64,000 bases of DNA from Bacteroidota bacterium (GTDB lineage: Bacteria > Bacteroidota > Bacteroidia > UKL13-3). Location: contig JAIXWI010000030.1 of assembly GCA_027491355.1 (NCBI GenBank), forward strand, positions 124,001 to 188,000, given 5' to 3'. Shown here piece after piece: positions 19,907 to 26,606 of this stretch (positions within the stretch are counted from its first letter, which is position 1; the number at the start of each line of letters is the position of its first letter). The notes beneath the pieces were generated by a model, which saw only the letters and a program-made list of their open reading frames with translations, was not told the DNA's origin and did no database searches. The position numbers and the translations under genes are program-made.

Positions 19907-21466
19907 ATGGAAGAAAATTACAGACAAGACACCCGTAAAAAAAGAACCTTAACCAAGAGTATTTTACCCGAAGGTGGAAAATTACCACCACAAGCAATTG
20001 AACTAGAAGAAGCAGTATTGGGGGCGCTCATGTTAGAAAAACATGCCATTACAACTGTTGCTGAAATTCTATCGCCTGCAAGTTTTTATAAAGACAGTAA
20101 CAATATCATTTACCAAGCAATTGTAGATTTGTTTAGCAAAGCTGAACCCATAGATATATTAACTGTTACGGCAGAACTTAGAAAAAAAAGTCAGTTAGAA
20201 TTGGTTGGTGGTGCATACTATATTACCATGCTAACCAATCGCATTGCCTCTGCAGCAAATATAGAAGCACACGCTAGAATCATTGCTGAAAAATTTTTAC
20301 AAAGGGAATTGATTCGAATTGCAGGAGAAATTCAAAATGAAGCTTTCGAGGACAGTTCTGATGCTTTTAAGTTATTAGATTCTGCAGAAAAAAAACTATT
20401 CGAGTTGTCACAAGGCAATATCAAACGTTCCTATTTAAACATCAATTCTGTAGTCAAACAAACCCTAAAAGATATTGAAGACTTAAAACAACAATCAGGA
20501 AAATACACGGGTATCCCATCTGGTTTTACCAAATTAGACAATTTAACAGGAGGTTTTCAAAGATCAGATTTAATCATTGTTGCTGCCAGGCCAGGTATGG
20601 GTAAAACTGCATTTGCATTGAGTGTGGCCAGAAATGCCTCATTTGAGGGTTTGGCTGAGAACCAAAAACCTCGAGCTGTAGCTATTTTTTCTCTTGAAAT
20701 GGGGAACAAACAAATGGTTAGTAGGATGATCAGCTCAGAGGCAGAGATTTCTGGCCATAAACTCCGTACTGGTGAACTTAAAGATTATGAATGGGAGCAA
20801 TTAAACGCCAAAATAGCCAGTTTAAGTGACGCCCCAATTTTTATAGATGATACTCCTGCACTATCTGTATTTGAACTTCGTGCCAAGTGCAGAAGAATGA
20901 AACAACAGAATGACATTTCAATGATTTTGATTGATTACCTTCAATTAATGAGAGGTGATGACACTGGCAACAAAAACGGAAATAGAGAACAAGAGGTGAG
21001 TTACATTTCAAGATCATTGAAAGCGCTAGCCAAAGAATTAGATGTTCCAGTAATTGCATTGTCTCAATTGAGTCGTCAAACTGAAAGAAGAACCAACTCT
21101 AATAGGCCTATGTTGTCAGACTTAAGGGAATCAGGTTCTATTGAACAAGATGCTGACATGGTAATGTTTATTTACAGACCAGAATATTACAATATTACTG
21201 AATGGGAAGAAGGCGAGCCAACAACTGGACAGGCAGAGGTAATGATTGCTAAAAACAGACATGGGGCTATTGAAAACATTCGCCTGCGCTTTTTGAAAGA
21301 CTATACCAAATTTACAGATTTGATGGAAGACCGTTATGGATTTGACGCTCCAAGTTCAAAAGATGCACTGGGCACAATTACCATGAGCTCTAGGTTAAAC
21401 GATTGGAGTATTGAAGACGATGAACCTGAAAACGACTCTAAGCTACCTCCAATTGCTCCTTTCTAG
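19907..21466 (+). CDS. dnaB: Replicative DNA helicase DnaB
   Basis: This 519-residue hexameric helicase unwinds the replication fork and interacts with primase. The N-terminal helical domain spans about residues 25-130, with the typical P-P-Q-A-I-E-L-E-E-A-V-L-G-A-L opening. The RecA-like domain has Walker A A-R-P-G-M-G-K-T (227-234), F-S-L-E-M (H1a), and Walker B I-D-Y-L-Q-L-M, then Q-L-S-R and S-D-L-R-E-S-G-S-I-E-Q-D-A-D. No intein is present. The acidic C-terminal tail follows V-M-I-A-K-N-R-H-G. The stop shares a CTAG with the convergent TPR gene. Confidence 0.97.
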   Translation: MEENYRQDTRKKRTLTKSILPEGGKLPPQAIELEEAVLGALMLEKHAITTVAEILSPASFYKDSNNIIYQAIVDLFSKAEPIDILTVTAELRKKSQLELVGGAYYITMLTNRIASAANIEAHARIIAEKFLQRELIRIAGEIQNEAFEDSSDAFKLLDSAEKKLFELSQGNIKRSYLNINSVVKQTLKDIEDLKQQSGKYTGIPSGFTKLDNLTGGFQRSDLIIVAARPGMGKTAFALSVARNASFEGLAENQKPRAVAIFSLEMGNKQMVSRMISSEAEISGHKLRTGELKDYEWEQLNAKIASLSDAPIFIDDTPALSVFELRAKCRRMKQQNDISMILIDYLQLMRGDDTGNKNGNREQEVSYISRSLKALAKELDVPVIALSQLSRQTERRTNSNRPMLSDLRESGSIEQDADMVMFIYRPEYYNITEWEEGEPTTGQAEVMIAKNRHGAIENIRLRFLKDYTKFTDLMEDRYGFDAPSSKDALGTITMSSRLNDWSIEDDEPENDSKLPPIAPF

Positions 21467-21792
21467 AAAAATTCAATTTCATCCAACAATGATTTAAATT
21501 CATTGAGCGTTTTGGTATCGTTACTTTTTTGTAAAAGTTCTATCCCTTCATTCAGGAGGGCAATTGCTTGTGCAACATCACCCTTAGATTGGGCAATTTT
21601 AGCCAGTTGAAACCTAGATGGAATATGATTTGGATTGATTTCAATACATTTTTGAAAAAAAATGATTGCTAATTGTAAATTTTCTGTAGCCATTTCCTCC
21701 ATAGCTATCGCAAAGTTAATGAAAACATCATTGGGTGTTTCAGCAAGCATTTCAATGAGTTTGGCTTTTCTTTGTTGTTTAAAATCTGTCAT
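21463..21792 (-). CDS. Small tetratricopeptide-repeat protein
   Basis: This 109-residue cytoplasmic protein carries roughly two to three TPR units: N-F-A-I-A-M-E-E-M-A-x-x-N-L-Q-L-A-I-I-F-F-Q-K-C-I-E-I-N-P, then S-R-F-Q-L-A-K-I-A-Q-S-K-G-D-V-A-Q-A-I-A. It has no signal peptide. TPRs bind partner peptides, and no partner is evident. It is a single gene convergent with dnaB, sharing the stop palindrome CTAG (21463-21466). Confidence 0.75.
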   Translation of the reverse strand: MTDFKQQRKAKLIEMLAETPNDVFINFAIAMEEMATENLQLAIIFFQKCIEINPNHIPSRFQLAKIAQSKGDVAQAIALLNEGIELLQKSNDTKTLNEFKSLLDEIEFF

Positions 21793-21919
21793 TCTTTTAA
21801 ATTTTTACTTTCCAAAGATGAATAATTTTGTGTTTTGGGGACAAGATGGTTATTCAAATTAGAAAAAAATCAATTATTTGCAGGATATTTCAACCATAAA
21901 AACTGTGATATCTTAAAAT

Positions 21920-22657
21920 ATGAAAATCTTAGTTTGTATTAGCAATGTACCCGACACTACCACCAAAGTAGCGTTTATTGAAAATGAAACAAAATTTAAC
22001 ACTTCAGGTGTACAATACATCATCAATCCTTATGATGAGTTGGCTTTAACAAAAGCACTTGAAATAACAGAAAAATCAGGCGGTTCCGTTACTGTTATCC
22101 ATGTAGGTACTGCAGAAAGCGAAGCAAGCATAAGAAAAGCTTTAGCTATTGGTGCAACTGAAGCTGTAAGAATCAACGCAGCTGCTAATGATGCCTCCTA
22201 TGTGGCTGAACAAATTGCTCATTATGCTGCCTCTCAAAACTTCGACCTCATTTTCACAGGTAGAGAAAGCATTGATTACAATGGTGGCATGGTATGTGGT
22301 TTGTTGGCTGCAAAATTAAATTTACCAAGTGTACAAGTAATTACAAGTATTGAGATAGAAGGAACTACAGCAATCATGGACCGAGATATTGATGGTGGAA
22401 AAGAAAAGATAAGCTGTTCTCTACCTTTGGTTGTGAGTGCACAAAAAGAATTGACAGAACCTAGAATCCCAAATATGAGAGGAATCATGGCTGCAAGAAC
22501 CAAGCCTTTACAGGTTTTAGAACCTACTGCAGCAGATCAGCTATCAACAGTAAGGTCATACCAATTACCTCCTGCAAAAGGCGCTTGCAAAATGATTGAT
22601 GCTAGCAACGCAAAAGATTTAATTAGACTGTTACACGAAGAAGCAAAAGTGATCTAA
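21920..22657 (+). CDS. etfB: Electron transfer flavoprotein beta subunit
   Basis: This 245-residue protein forms the AMP-binding half of ETF, which carries electrons from acyl-CoA dehydrogenases to the respiratory chain. The start M-K-I-L-V-C-I-S-N-V-P-D-T-T and the strings N-P-Y-D-E-L-A-L-T-K-A-L-E, F-T-G-R-E-S-I-D-Y-N-G and P-N-M-R-G-I-M-A-A are typical of EtfB. Its stop overlaps the next start by one base (TAATG). Unusually, that next gene is not etfA but an unknown 183-residue protein. Confidence 0.94.
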   Translation: MKILVCISNVPDTTTKVAFIENETKFNTSGVQYIINPYDELALTKALEITEKSGGSVTVIHVGTAESEASIRKALAIGATEAVRINAAANDASYVAEQIAHYAASQNFDLIFTGRESIDYNGGMVCGLLAAKLNLPSVQVITSIEIEGTTAIMDRDIDGGKEKISCSLPLVVSAQKELTEPRIPNMRGIMAARTKPLQVLEPTAADQLSTVRSYQLPPAKGACKMIDASNAKDLIRLLHEEAKVI

Positions 22658-23208
22658 TGCACAAACTCCTTTTCACACTTGTATTCAGTTTTTTGCTTTT
22701 CGGATTTTTTAACTCCAAATGCATCGCCCAACAAGTTCAATTTAAAAATGAACAGGGTAAAACAATTACTGTGAAACAAGGCGATCAAATATCACTTTTT
22801 TACAACGGATACCTGGGGCAGAAGCAATACCATAATGCTGATTTTTTATATAGCACTGATTCCAGCATTGTTTTAGGAACTAACATTCAGCCTAAAAACG
22901 AAAAAAATGCTAACTTTTTACTTTTGCACAACATGCAAAAAAAAGAAATTTTATTCAAGGATATTCTAGCGTTCAGAAGAATCAGTATAGGCAGAAAAGT
23001 TTTGTCATCTACCATTCAATTCATATCAATTATGAGTTTTGCTGTGGCGTTGTCTGAAATCAGTGATAACAATCAATTAAACTTTGGCCAATCATTGCTT
23101 TATTCATTAGCAGGCGGAATTGGTATTTCATTGTTCATTAATATAGCCTTACCTGACAACCCAAAATACACAATGAGTTCAGGATGGCAAGTTCAAACCA
23201 TTAAATAA
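22657..23208 (+). CDS. Unknown envelope protein inserted between etfB and etfA
   Basis: I do not recognise a family. The 183-residue product has a signal peptide (F-S-F-L-L-F-G-F-F-N-S-K-C-I-A-Q, with a Cys near residue 22 that is not a clean lipobox). It then has a soluble part (about 26-110) containing K-Q-G-D-Q-I-S-L-F-Y-N-G-Y, and two hydrophobic segments (about 115-135 and 148-168). Its start overlaps the etfB stop by one base and its stop lies 13 bases before etfA, so it is cotranscribed with both. Whether it has any link to electron transfer is unknown. Confidence 0.7.
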   Translation: MHKLLFTLVFSFLLFGFFNSKCIAQQVQFKNEQGKTITVKQGDQISLFYNGYLGQKQYHNADFLYSTDSSIVLGTNIQPKNEKNANFLLLHNMQKKEILFKDILAFRRISIGRKVLSSTIQFISIMSFAVALSEISDNNQLNFGQSLLYSLAGGIGISLFINIALPDNPKYTMSSGWQVQTIK

Positions 23209-23221
23209 TAATTTATTTTAT

Positions 23222-24190
23222 ATGTCAGTTATTGTATTTGCAGAAAACAGTGAAGGTCTCTTTAAAAAATCAACATTAGAGGCTGTATTTTATGCGCATG
23301 AATTGGGGAAACTCGTTCAACAAAATTGTATTGCCATTTCAATCGGACAAGTAGACGAAGTTCAATTGAAAATGTTAGCTACTTATGGAGCAGACCAAAT
23401 TATCAGTTTTAACCAAACTGAAACAAATACTTTCAACGCAGAATTGTATGCAGCATTGTTTGCTAATACAGCAAAAAATAGCAATGCTAAACACATCGTT
23501 TTTGCCAACACATATACGGGAAAGTTAATAGCTCCTAGGGTTGCAGGAATATTGAATGCGGCCATGGCAAGTGGAGTAATTAGCTTACCTAATTTAGACA
23601 ATGGGTTTGTTGTAAAGAGAACCGTTTTCTCAGGAAAAGCAATTGCAGATGTTGAATTAAACGCTCAAGTAAAACTAATTTCGATTGCACCAAACACATT
23701 CACAATTTTTGAAGTTAACAAGTCTGCAAGTATTGAAAAATTGGAATCAACTATTGGAACTGAAATTGCTAAAACCAAATCTATAGAACTGAGTAAACAA
23801 GTTGGTAAAATTGCCCTTACTGAAGCAGAGTTAGTTGTGAGTGCAGGAAGAGGCATGAAAGGTCCAGAGCATTGGGGTATGATTGAAGAACTAGCAGACT
23901 TGTTAGGTGCAGCAACTGCTTGTTCAAAACCTGTAAGTGATATGCACTGGAGGCCGCACAGTGAGCATGTTGGTCAAACTGGAATTACAATCAAACCCAA
24001 TTTATACATTGCAATTGGTATTTCTGGAGCTATACAGCATTTGGCTGGAGTAAGTTCTTCTAAAGTTATAGTAGCCATTAACAAAGACCCTGAAGCACCG
24101 TTTTTTAAAGCTGCTGACTATGGAATAGTTGGTGATGCTTTTGAAGTACTTCCTCAATTGATTGAAGCTGCCAAATCTATTCAATCTTAA
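23222..24190 (+). CDS. etfA: Electron transfer flavoprotein alpha subunit
   Basis: This 322-residue FAD-binding subunit of ETF is recognised by its C-terminal FAD domain: L-V-V-S-A-G-R-G-M-K-G-P-E, A-T-A-C-S-K-P-V-S-D, G-Q-T-G-I-T-I-K-P-N-L-Y-I-A-I-G-I-S-G-A-I-Q-H-L-A-G and I-N-K-D-P-E-A-P-F-F-K-A-A-D-Y-G-I-V-G-D. These are nearly invariant in EtfA. It works with EtfB in fatty acid and amino acid oxidation, and the likely electron source includes acyl-CoA dehydrogenases. It follows the inserted gene and precedes the BFN-family gene by 21 bases. Confidence 0.95.
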   Translation: MSVIVFAENSEGLFKKSTLEAVFYAHELGKLVQQNCIAISIGQVDEVQLKMLATYGADQIISFNQTETNTFNAELYAALFANTAKNSNAKHIVFANTYTGKLIAPRVAGILNAAMASGVISLPNLDNGFVVKRTVFSGKAIADVELNAQVKLISIAPNTFTIFEVNKSASIEKLESTIGTEIAKTKSIELSKQVGKIALTEAELVVSAGRGMKGPEHWGMIEELADLLGAATACSKPVSDMHWRPHSEHVGQTGITIKPNLYIAIGISGAIQHLAGVSSSKVIVAINKDPEAPFFKAADYGIVGDAFEVLPQLIEAAKSIQS

Positions 24191-24211
24191 ATTGTAGGTT
24201 ATACCAACAAA

Positions 24212-24856
24212 ATGGGCAGGGTAAAATTAACAATATCAGGATTGAGCACAGGACAAAGCAGTGGCTCGTACACCCTGATTTTAAGTGAGGAACAAGGGAA
24301 AAGAAAATTGCCAATTGTTATTGGGAGTTTCGAAGCACAAGCCATTGCAATAGAAATTGAGAAGATTGCACCTTTCAGACCAATGACCCATGATTTGTTT
24401 GTAAATTTTTGCAAAGCATTTGATATCATGGTTCATGAAGTTGTCATATTCAATTTACATGAAGGTGTTTTTCATGCCAAGCTTATCTGTGAGCAAATGG
24501 GAGAAATAAAAGAAATTGATGCCAGAACTTCAGATGCCATTGCGATAGCTGTGAGGTTTAAATGTCCAATCTACACTTTCTCTGAAATAATGGATATTGC
24601 AGGAATTGATCTAAATGAGGAAGAAGAGGATTTGAATGAAGAGGAAGAAGATTATGACATTGATGCTGAAATTGACATTGATGAATTGATGCTCAATTCT
24701 AATTCTGAAATTGGAGCTGATTCTAAAAGAAACAATGCAAATTTTTCTAAATATTCACTTCAGCAATTACACGAATTACTCGAAAAAGCAATAGAACAAG
24801 AAGAGTATAGTTTTGCAGTGCAAATAAGAGATGAAATAAACAAAAGGAGCAAGTGA
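24212..24856 (+). CDS. Bifunctional nuclease (BFN/DUF151) family protein with a UVR-like tail
   Basis: This 214-residue protein has an N-terminal BFN domain (about 1-135) with the family strings L-P-I-V-I-G-S-F-E-A-Q-A-I and D-A-R-T-S-D-A-I-A-I-A-V-R. A very acidic linker follows (many Glu/Asp, about 135-175). The last 40 residues resemble a UvrB/UvrC interaction motif (L-x-x-L-L-E-K-A-I-E-Q-E-E-Y-x-x-A-V-Q-I-R-D-E-I). Plant and Mycobacterium members have been linked to nuclease or DNA-repair roles; activity here is not shown. It is cotranscribed with etfA and the transporter gene. Confidence 0.85.
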   Translation: MGRVKLTISGLSTGQSSGSYTLILSEEQGKRKLPIVIGSFEAQAIAIEIEKIAPFRPMTHDLFVNFCKAFDIMVHEVVIFNLHEGVFHAKLICEQMGEIKEIDARTSDAIAIAVRFKCPIYTFSEIMDIAGIDLNEEEEDLNEEEEDYDIDAEIDIDELMLNSNSEIGADSKRNNANFSKYSLQQLHELLEKAIEQEEYSFAVQIRDEINKRSK

Positions 24857-24857
24857 T

Positions 24858-26138
24858 ATGGAAAGATTTACTGGAATTATTGGGATAGTAGTATTACTGG
24901 GCATTGCTTTCTTGTTTTCTAATAACAGAAAAGCTATCAATTATAGATTGGTGGTAAGTGGACTTTTACTACAATTGGCACTTGCTGTTTTTATTTTAAA
25001 AACCAGTATTGGACAACATTTATTTGCGTGGGTAGGAAGTAAGATTGAACAACTCTTACAATTGGCCGACCAAGGCGGAGAATTTGTATTCGGTGGACTC
25101 ATTAAGCCCGAATTACTGAAACCAATTTTTGGAGACAGGTACAGTTTCCTATTCATGTTTAAAATTATACCAACCATCATTTTTGTGGCAGTGCTTGTTA
25201 ACATAGCTTACCATATAGGTTTAATGCAGCGCATTGTATCCTTTTTTGCTGGCATTGTTCACAAACTCATGCGCGTAAGTGGCAGTGAAGCTTTGTCAAA
25301 TGTTGCCAGTGCATTTGTTGGACAGGTTGAAGCTCAAATAATGATCAAACCATACATCAATACCATGACTAAAAGCGAGCTTTTGGCTAGCATGAGCGGA
25401 AGTATGGCAACCATTGCTGGTGGGGTAATGGCTGTATATATTTCTATGGGAGTACCTGCCCCCTATTTGCTAGCCGCAAGTATCATGGCAGCACCTGGCG
25501 CTTTGGTGATATCAAAAATAGTTTGGCCTGAAACAGAAGAATCACCAACAAAAGGAGATATCAAGTTAGAAGTAAAACAAGCACACGTAAATTTATTAGA
25601 TGCCATTTCACATGGTGCCTCAGATGGTTTAAAAGTTGGTTTGAATGTAGTTGCCATGTTAATTGGTTTCATTGCATTGATTGCGTTGGCAGATTTGTTA
25701 TTGCTTAAATTGGGTTCAATTTTAGTAATGATCGGATTAAATCAATCAAACATTGGGATAGATTTAAGTCAATTGAGTTTAGATAAAATATTTGGCGTTG
25801 TATTTTCAGGTTTGGCATGGACAATGGGTGTTCCTGCTGCAGATACCGTTGTAGCAGGTTCATTGATGGGTACTAAAATGGTAATCAATGAATTTGTGGC
25901 TTACTCTAAACTATCTCCAATGATTGCAGGAAATTTGTTACAAGCTAAATCAGTTATGATCATTAGCTTTGCTTTGTGTGGTTTTGCTAATTTCAGCTCC
26001 ATTGCAATTCAAGTGGGAGGCATTGGCGAATTAGCTCCATCAAGAAGAGCAGATTTAGCAAAATTGGGGTTCAAAGCATTAATGATAGGAACCATGGCCT
26101 CTTACTTAAGTGCAACCATTGCAGGTATTTTATTTTAA
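24858..26138 (+). CDS. Concentrative nucleoside transporter (CNT/NupC family)
   Basis: This 426-residue inner-membrane symporter takes up nucleosides, usually with H+ or Na+. About 8-10 hydrophobic segments are visible. CNT-family strings include G-Q-V-E-A-Q-I-M-I-K-P-Y-I, M-T-K-S-E-L-L-A-S-M-S-G-S-M-A-T-I-A-G-G-V-M-A-V-Y (read in two parts, about 173-196), A-S-I-M-A-A-P-G-A-L and C-G-F-A-N-F-S-S-I-A-I-Q-V-G-G-I. It begins 1 base after the BFN gene stop. NupC gives uridine/cytidine/adenosine preference in E. coli; substrate here is not predictable. Confidence 0.93.
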   Translation: MERFTGIIGIVVLLGIAFLFSNNRKAINYRLVVSGLLLQLALAVFILKTSIGQHLFAWVGSKIEQLLQLADQGGEFVFGGLIKPELLKPIFGDRYSFLFMFKIIPTIIFVAVLVNIAYHIGLMQRIVSFFAGIVHKLMRVSGSEALSNVASAFVGQVEAQIMIKPYINTMTKSELLASMSGSMATIAGGVMAVYISMGVPAPYLLAASIMAAPGALVISKIVWPETEESPTKGDIKLEVKQAHVNLLDAISHGASDGLKVGLNVVAMLIGFIALIALADLLLLKLGSILVMIGLNQSNIGIDLSQLSLDKIFGVVFSGLAWTMGVPAADTVVAGSLMGTKMVINEFVAYSKLSPMIAGNLLQAKSVMIISFALCGFANFSSIAIQVGGIGELAPSRRADLAKLGFKALMIGTMASYLSATIAGILF

Positions 26139-26142
26139 TTTC

Positions 26143-26577
26143 TTGAGGTTAAATTTACCAACTTTTGAGCCAAAAATAAACCAAGCAGACAATGGTCCAA
26201 TGTTATTTGACCCTATCCGAAAAATATGGGTAAAATTAACCAATGAAGAGTGGGTAAGACAGCATATCATTTTTTTATTGATAAGCAAGTTTGGAATTGC
26301 TAAAAGCTTAATAGCAGTAGAAAAAACACTCAATTTCAATAACCTTAAAAAAAGGTATGACATATGTGTATTCAACAACAATGCTCAACCAATTTTATTG
26401 ATAGAATGTAAAGCGTTTGATATTGAATTGAAACAACAAACCATTATTCAAATCATTACGTATAACCAGGTATTAGACGTTCCTTTACTCTGGATTTCAA
26501 ATGGAATCAAACACATGACATTTAAAAAGAATACACAAAATCATTTTGAGCTGTATTCAGATGAATTAATATTCTAA
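26143..26577 (+). CDS. Solo HsdR N-terminal-like PD-(D/E)xK nuclease-fold protein
   Basis: The frame encodes a 144-residue protein from a TTG at 26143 (MRLNLPTFEPKI), which matches how this family usually starts; a GTG at 26110 is possible but would lie inside the transporter gene. The string E-E-W-V-R-Q-H is typical of the HsdR N-terminal-like family. A PD-(D/E)xK-type core is visible: Y-D-I-C-V-F with Asp73 and L-I-E-C-K-A with Glu88 and Lys90, so the nuclease residues look intact. No helicase domain, HsdM or HsdS is nearby, so it is not a working type I restriction enzyme. It probably follows the transporter in one transcript. Confidence 0.75.
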   Translation: MRLNLPTFEPKINQADNGPMLFDPIRKIWVKLTNEEWVRQHIIFLLISKFGIAKSLIAVEKTLNFNNLKKRYDICVFNNNAQPILLIECKAFDIELKQQTIIQIITYNQVLDVPLLWISNGIKHMTFKKNTQNHFELYSDELIF

Positions 26578-26606
26578 TCCTGCAAAATTTCTTTTAAATT
26601 GTAAAC

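Follow-up and report, generated by a model that had tools for sequence, protein, structure and literature searches.

A putative envelope-protein gene between etfB and etfA in one genus of Bacteroidota, very probably relocated from a DUF2851-linked slot

The window, a stretch of 64,000 nucleotides from a Bacteroidota genome (assembly GCA_027491355.1, contig JAIXWI010000030.1, forward-strand positions 124,001–188,000), contains the genes for both subunits of the electron transfer flavoprotein (ETF), with an unrelated third gene between them. The β-subunit is encoded by etfB (21920–22657, plus strand; 245 residues; PF01012, 3e-33) and the α-subunit by etfA (23222–24190, plus strand; 322 residues; PF00766, 7.7e-33, and PF01012, 6.5e-30). 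The third gene, here called X (22657–23208, plus strand), encodes 183 residues from an ATG start. This ATG has one base in common with the TAA stop codon of etfB (TAATG), and 13 bases separate the end of X from the start of etfA, in agreement with the coordinates in the preliminary description. The insertion has left the length of etfB unaltered, its 245 residues matching those of relatives from end to end. The Pfam domains of both subunits are found on the same strand, as expected of an EtfB–EtfA pair, but the subunit genes do not adjoin, with 567 bases between the EtfB and EtfA matches in this genome. The pair is flanked by a divergent gene next to etfB (21463–21792, minus strand), which we read from its sequence as TPR-like, and by a bifunctional nuclease (BFN) domain gene downstream of etfA (24212–24856, plus strand; PF02577, 1.8e-39, with a UVR motif, PF02151, 4.7e-05). 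Both places are conserved, and the TPR-like, BFN and NupC-like outer neighbours are common to many other etf loci where the fetched stretch reaches them. With its intact subunits, gene order and neighbours, the locus therefore resembles those of relatives, whereas the third gene in between sets this genus apart among the genomes searched.

The cotranscription of X with etfB and etfA that had been proposed earlier is likely from the spacing of the three genes, and the lack of a terminator-like site in 21750–24300 fits it. The Bacteroidota-type promoter hexamers, TANNTTTG, showed no enrichment in the window (90 against an expected 107.5) and sigma-70-like sites occurred near chance (11 versus 8.6 expected), and on these counts no promoter is assigned. 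A search of 21400–26600 gave no Rfam match.

X is a real gene, as intact homologs occur in 23 of the 58 genomes searched (its own included) and the dN/dS values of the three pairs among G000, G001 and G003, members of the same genus, are 0.11–0.21; these values and the full-length homologs rule out a chance open reading frame. For pairs among the same three genomes the values are 0.017–0.046 for EtfB and 0.045–0.075 for EtfA, all of these YN00 estimates being rough where dS exceeds 1, as it does in many pairs. X is under purifying selection, though it evolves faster than its new neighbours etfB and etfA.

The X protein probably belongs to an unnamed envelope family with a signal peptide, a small β-barrel and a helical hairpin, as modelled from sequence. 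Residues 1–25 (22657–22731) are a putative signal peptide ending in IAQ, assigned from the sequence alone by a hydrophobic N-terminus and an invariant AQ-type site; the Q is invariant in all 21 rows of the alignment of X proteins (A1), and cleavage is presumed to follow it. The AlphaFold2 model (mean pLDDT 88.4, pTM 0.72) consists of an N-terminal helix, a small barrel and two helices. The predicted barrel is Sm/SH3-like (residues 26–109, 22732–22983), and the two helices (residues 111–139 and 143–164, 22987–23148) form a predicted hydrophobic hairpin with best 19-residue Kyte–Doolittle means of 1.71 and 1.88. Hydrophobic helices are found in every row of A1 (best means 1.00–1.90 and 1.12–2.10), as is a net charge of +2 to +5 just before the first helix. 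According to the positive-inside rule, positively charged residues of membrane proteins tend to remain on the cytoplasmic side, and this charge therefore makes an inner-membrane hairpin awkward for a periplasmic protein.

Foldseek returned no match to the model at an E value of 0.001 or better (the best was above 0.01), and its list holds many small barrels, among them GerQ, the C-terminal domains of retroviral integrases and SH3-like domains of myosin. In VIA-align, the barrel was aligned with Hfq, LSm and GerQ over 54–65 residues (r.m.s.d. 2.4–3.9) with Z scores of 5.3–6.0, where a Z score below 8 may reflect no more than a shared arrangement. The list is headed by a cytochrome c and a P2X receptor, with Z scores equal to those of the small barrels, and for this reason no structural family is claimed. 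The predicted barrel of X thus aligns weakly with the Sm/SH3-like barrels but differs from them in its predicted export, in its hydrophobic hairpin and in the lack of a sequence match. No PDB chain matched the A1 profile at E values up to 1, and no PDB family fits X. No Pfam or NCBIfam model matched above its cut-off, which bears out the earlier view of X as a signal-peptide gene without a named family. Mid2 (PF04478; 17.6 of 23.2 bits), DUF5698 (PF18955; 16.4 of 27.5 bits) and YneA (NF010723; 16.3 of 60 bits) were rejected as falling under the curated cut-offs, and other weak Pfam and NCBIfam matches were either under cut-off or scattered over a few members of the X family.

The position of X between etfB and etfA is shared by all four genomes of the genus (G000, G001, G002 and G003). 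In each of them X starts at the stop codon of etfB, as TAATG in three and as TAAATG in G002. EtfA and EtfB were each searched in 58 genomes, 54 of which gave matches to both. The two matches lie 545–568 bases apart in the four genus genomes, 4–137 bases apart in 49 others and 237 bases apart in G010, so that an insert of the size of X is absent from 50 of the 54. The EtfA and EtfB matches of G010 are only 25–27% identical and probably represent a different, divergent ETF pair. Among named loci (the best 80 of 569, from the EtfA alignment), the gap is 1–132 bp in 79; it is 565 bases in the remaining one, on contig CANHRW010000032.1, which holds X in the gap and belongs to one of the four genus genomes. 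Similarly, X is found inside etfBA in only the four genus loci among 29 etf loci of relatives. The earlier statements that etfB and etfA adjoin in most genomes and that the insertion is rare are supported by these counts: apart from the genus and the G010 outlier, the pair adjoins throughout the 54-genome set, and the order etfB–X–etfA was found in this genus only among the genomes searched. The order is not widespread, and no known unrelated family occupies the place. As to whether related genomes carry the insertion, those of the genus do without exception, whereas none of the other 45 relatives bearing X does. A literature search on etf gene order and on genes between etfB and etfA returned nothing on point, and the novelty of the arrangement rests on that search.

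The profile built from the 21 X proteins of A1 matches 49 of 64 genomes from the bacterial family, distributed over nine of its 14 genera; four of the 49 belong to the present genus. X was absent by this profile from 15 of the 64 genomes, with no match in five genera (g4, g5, g12, g13 and g14). The X protein of the window, which is itself a row of A1, matches the profile with an E value of 3.8e-65, and its homology is full-length, with single-sequence matches down to 8.5e-13. Identity is 65% within the genus and 27–38% outside it, and G002 X is 34–37% identical to G000 X. In 44 of the 45 X-bearing family genomes outside the genus (19 of 19, 23 of 24 and, for G067 and G070, two of two in three locus sets), X lies directly behind a DUF2851 gene (PF11013), a link that spans the eight other X-bearing genera; in several of them DUF2851 and X overlap by eight bases. 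In the literature searched, DUF2851 was mentioned in one paper, in a single table row on Akkermansia (PMC3861447). Downstream of X there usually follow genes for PspC, a histidine kinase (HK) and a response regulator (RR). The X protein of the window thus has the full-length homology and the predicted architecture of the DUF2851-linked small envelope protein, but its gene is placed in etfBA and not behind DUF2851. The one exception outside the genus is G071 of genus g3, in which X stands ahead of PspC–HK–RR, near EndA (locus L215), and DUF2851 is absent both at this locus and across the genome by a PF11013 search. This loss of DUF2851 is independent of that in the present genus.

The slot in which X is found elsewhere is empty in the genus, as sampled by its four genomes. 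In G002, the most divergent member, EndA on the other strand and the row DUF2851–PspC–HK–RR are kept, X is missing from the row with 26 bases between DUF2851 and PspC, and X itself is on a different contig from DUF2851. In G000, G001 and G003 the order is EndA and PspC–HK–RR, with neither X nor DUF2851, and DUF2851 was not found elsewhere in these genomes (listed completeness 99.99%, 79% and 100%, respectively) by a protein search or by a PF11013 search. Since G002 keeps DUF2851 without X and the other three lack both, the departure of X from the slot preceded the loss of DUF2851. G002 has a genome of 3.9 Mb, compared with 2.0–2.5 Mb for G000, G001 and G003, and 41 matches to one histidine kinase, compared with 9–12 in the other three; genome reduction is suggested in the lineage without DUF2851.

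These gene orders are best explained by X, a family-wide envelope gene, having relocated once into etfBA in the ancestor of the genus and having descended vertically since, a reading that we consider very probable. Ancestrally, X would have followed DUF2851 immediately, in many cases with PspC, HK and RR downstream. In the genus ancestor, its coding sequence would have moved almost precisely to the junction of etfB and etfA, where it would have started on the etfB stop codon and probably been expressed together with etfBA. The vacated place between DUF2851 and PspC would then have closed up, and DUF2851 would later have been lost in three of the four genomes. Short, imperfect, two-copy matches were the only repeats flanking the insertion, none of them convincing, so that there is no trace of a mobile element or of another moving mechanism, which counts against the relocation.

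In the X tree (23 rows) the four genus rows lie on one side of a branch (support 92/93), beside g3 (74/88, weak), and a tree of EtfA and EtfB (29 rows) puts the genus in the same place (92/98 and 91/98). The modest supports of the X tree and the 34–37% identity between the X proteins of G002 and G000 count against relocation, and the X support would be weak taken alone; the agreement of the two trees nevertheless makes vertical descent and relocation a better account than transfer. Acquisition of X by horizontal transfer, with the etf slot or alone and independently of the DUF2851-linked X, would account for the score of G000 X against X of G010 (genus g8), which at 94.5 bits is as high as that against G002 (92.2 bits). 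It is nonetheless improbable, as it conflicts both with the two trees, in which the genus stands beside g3, and with the vacancy of the old slot in precisely the lineage where X occupies the new one. Hardly any credence can be given to the reverse history, with etfB–X–etfA ancestral and the DUF2851 slot derived: no point in its support was found, and etfB and etfA adjoin in all other genera of the family and in nearly all of the named loci considered above, while the link between DUF2851 and X extends across eight other genera.

A link of X to ETF or to fatty-acid metabolism, implied in the preliminary description, is not upheld, since in 44 of the 45 other X-bearing family genomes X is found beside DUF2851 and not beside etf; its place in etfBA, which this pre-existing gene reached late, is a poor guide to what it does. 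X could in principle be a membrane partner of EtfAB, taking part in docking or in the passing of electrons to the membrane, with its operon place selected for equal dosage. The tight coupling in all four genomes, with X starting at the etfB stop or immediately downstream of it, and the hydrophobic helices of X would agree with such a role, as would the absence of a Fer4_ETF_QO (PF05187) match from all four. However, Fer4_ETF_QO gave no match over cut-off in any of the 58 genomes, though 54 of them match EtfA and EtfB; it is missing with or without X, and its absence is therefore not tied to X. Moreover, X is near etf in this genus only and is missing from many genomes that bear etfBA, and a cleaved signal peptide would place the barrel across the membrane from EtfAB. 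We regard a partnership with ETF as very unlikely, and we give an equally slight chance to X having been recruited by EtfAB in this genus, after its move, as a partner on the membrane side, which would tie an envelope protein to electron-carrier dosage. The relocation probably has no bearing on the electron carrier as such.

A functional dependence of X on PspC and the two-component module, as part of an envelope-stress sensor, is somewhat less remote but still unlikely. The order DUF2851–X–PspC–HK–RR occurs in most genera outside g6, and PspC–HK–RR is kept in all four genomes of the present genus. In g6, however, X after DUF2851 is followed by PyrF on the opposite strand with no PspC–HK–RR adjoining, G002 has DUF2851 and PspC with no X between them, and the homologs in family f38 are located near a type IX-secreted SBBP protein (one annotated locus, L195). 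X occurs without DUF2851 in the present genus and in G071, where its persistence in the old slot is a second sign that it does not need DUF2851, and without adjoining PspC–HK–RR in g6 and in the present genus. Most likely, X is a membrane-attached periplasmic protein with an envelope task that depends on neither DUF2851 nor ETF; its gene, coding for a general small envelope protein, is probably carried along by whichever operon hosts it.

Insertion of genes into existing operons is an ordinary kind of event, reportedly described by Price and others in 2006 as a known mode of operon evolution. As in such cases, X entered an old operon whose members remain unbroken; the difference lies in the unusually good resolution, as the donor slot, the recipient slot and an intermediate genome are all visible, together with the subsequent loss of DUF2851, the former partner of X. 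The locus is thus a clean example of the relocation of a single gene into a tightly coupled two-subunit operon. It also advises caution in reading function from operon neighbours, since the place in etf hints at fatty-acid metabolism and the history of X hints at the envelope.

Beyond the family, a class-wide search matched X in 15 of 198 genomes (seven from this family, five from family f38 and three weak matches with E values of 1e-5 to 5e-4); it scored only 17 first-look candidates per genome, so that distant homologs may have been missed. The X homologs of f38 are in loci L192–L196. In L195, X is preceded by a T9SS-type SBBP/CHU_C β-propeller protein (1252 residues) and a 179-residue protein without a Pfam match, and the layout of L192–L194 is similar. 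Distant X-like paralogs are also present in g2 and g3 (L197, 2989–3513; L198, 2998–3525; L199, 2716–3237; E values of 2.6e-09 to 2.4e-08) and suggest that envelope proteins of this kind form a broader family; the g2 paralog in L197 sits behind an OmpA-family gene.
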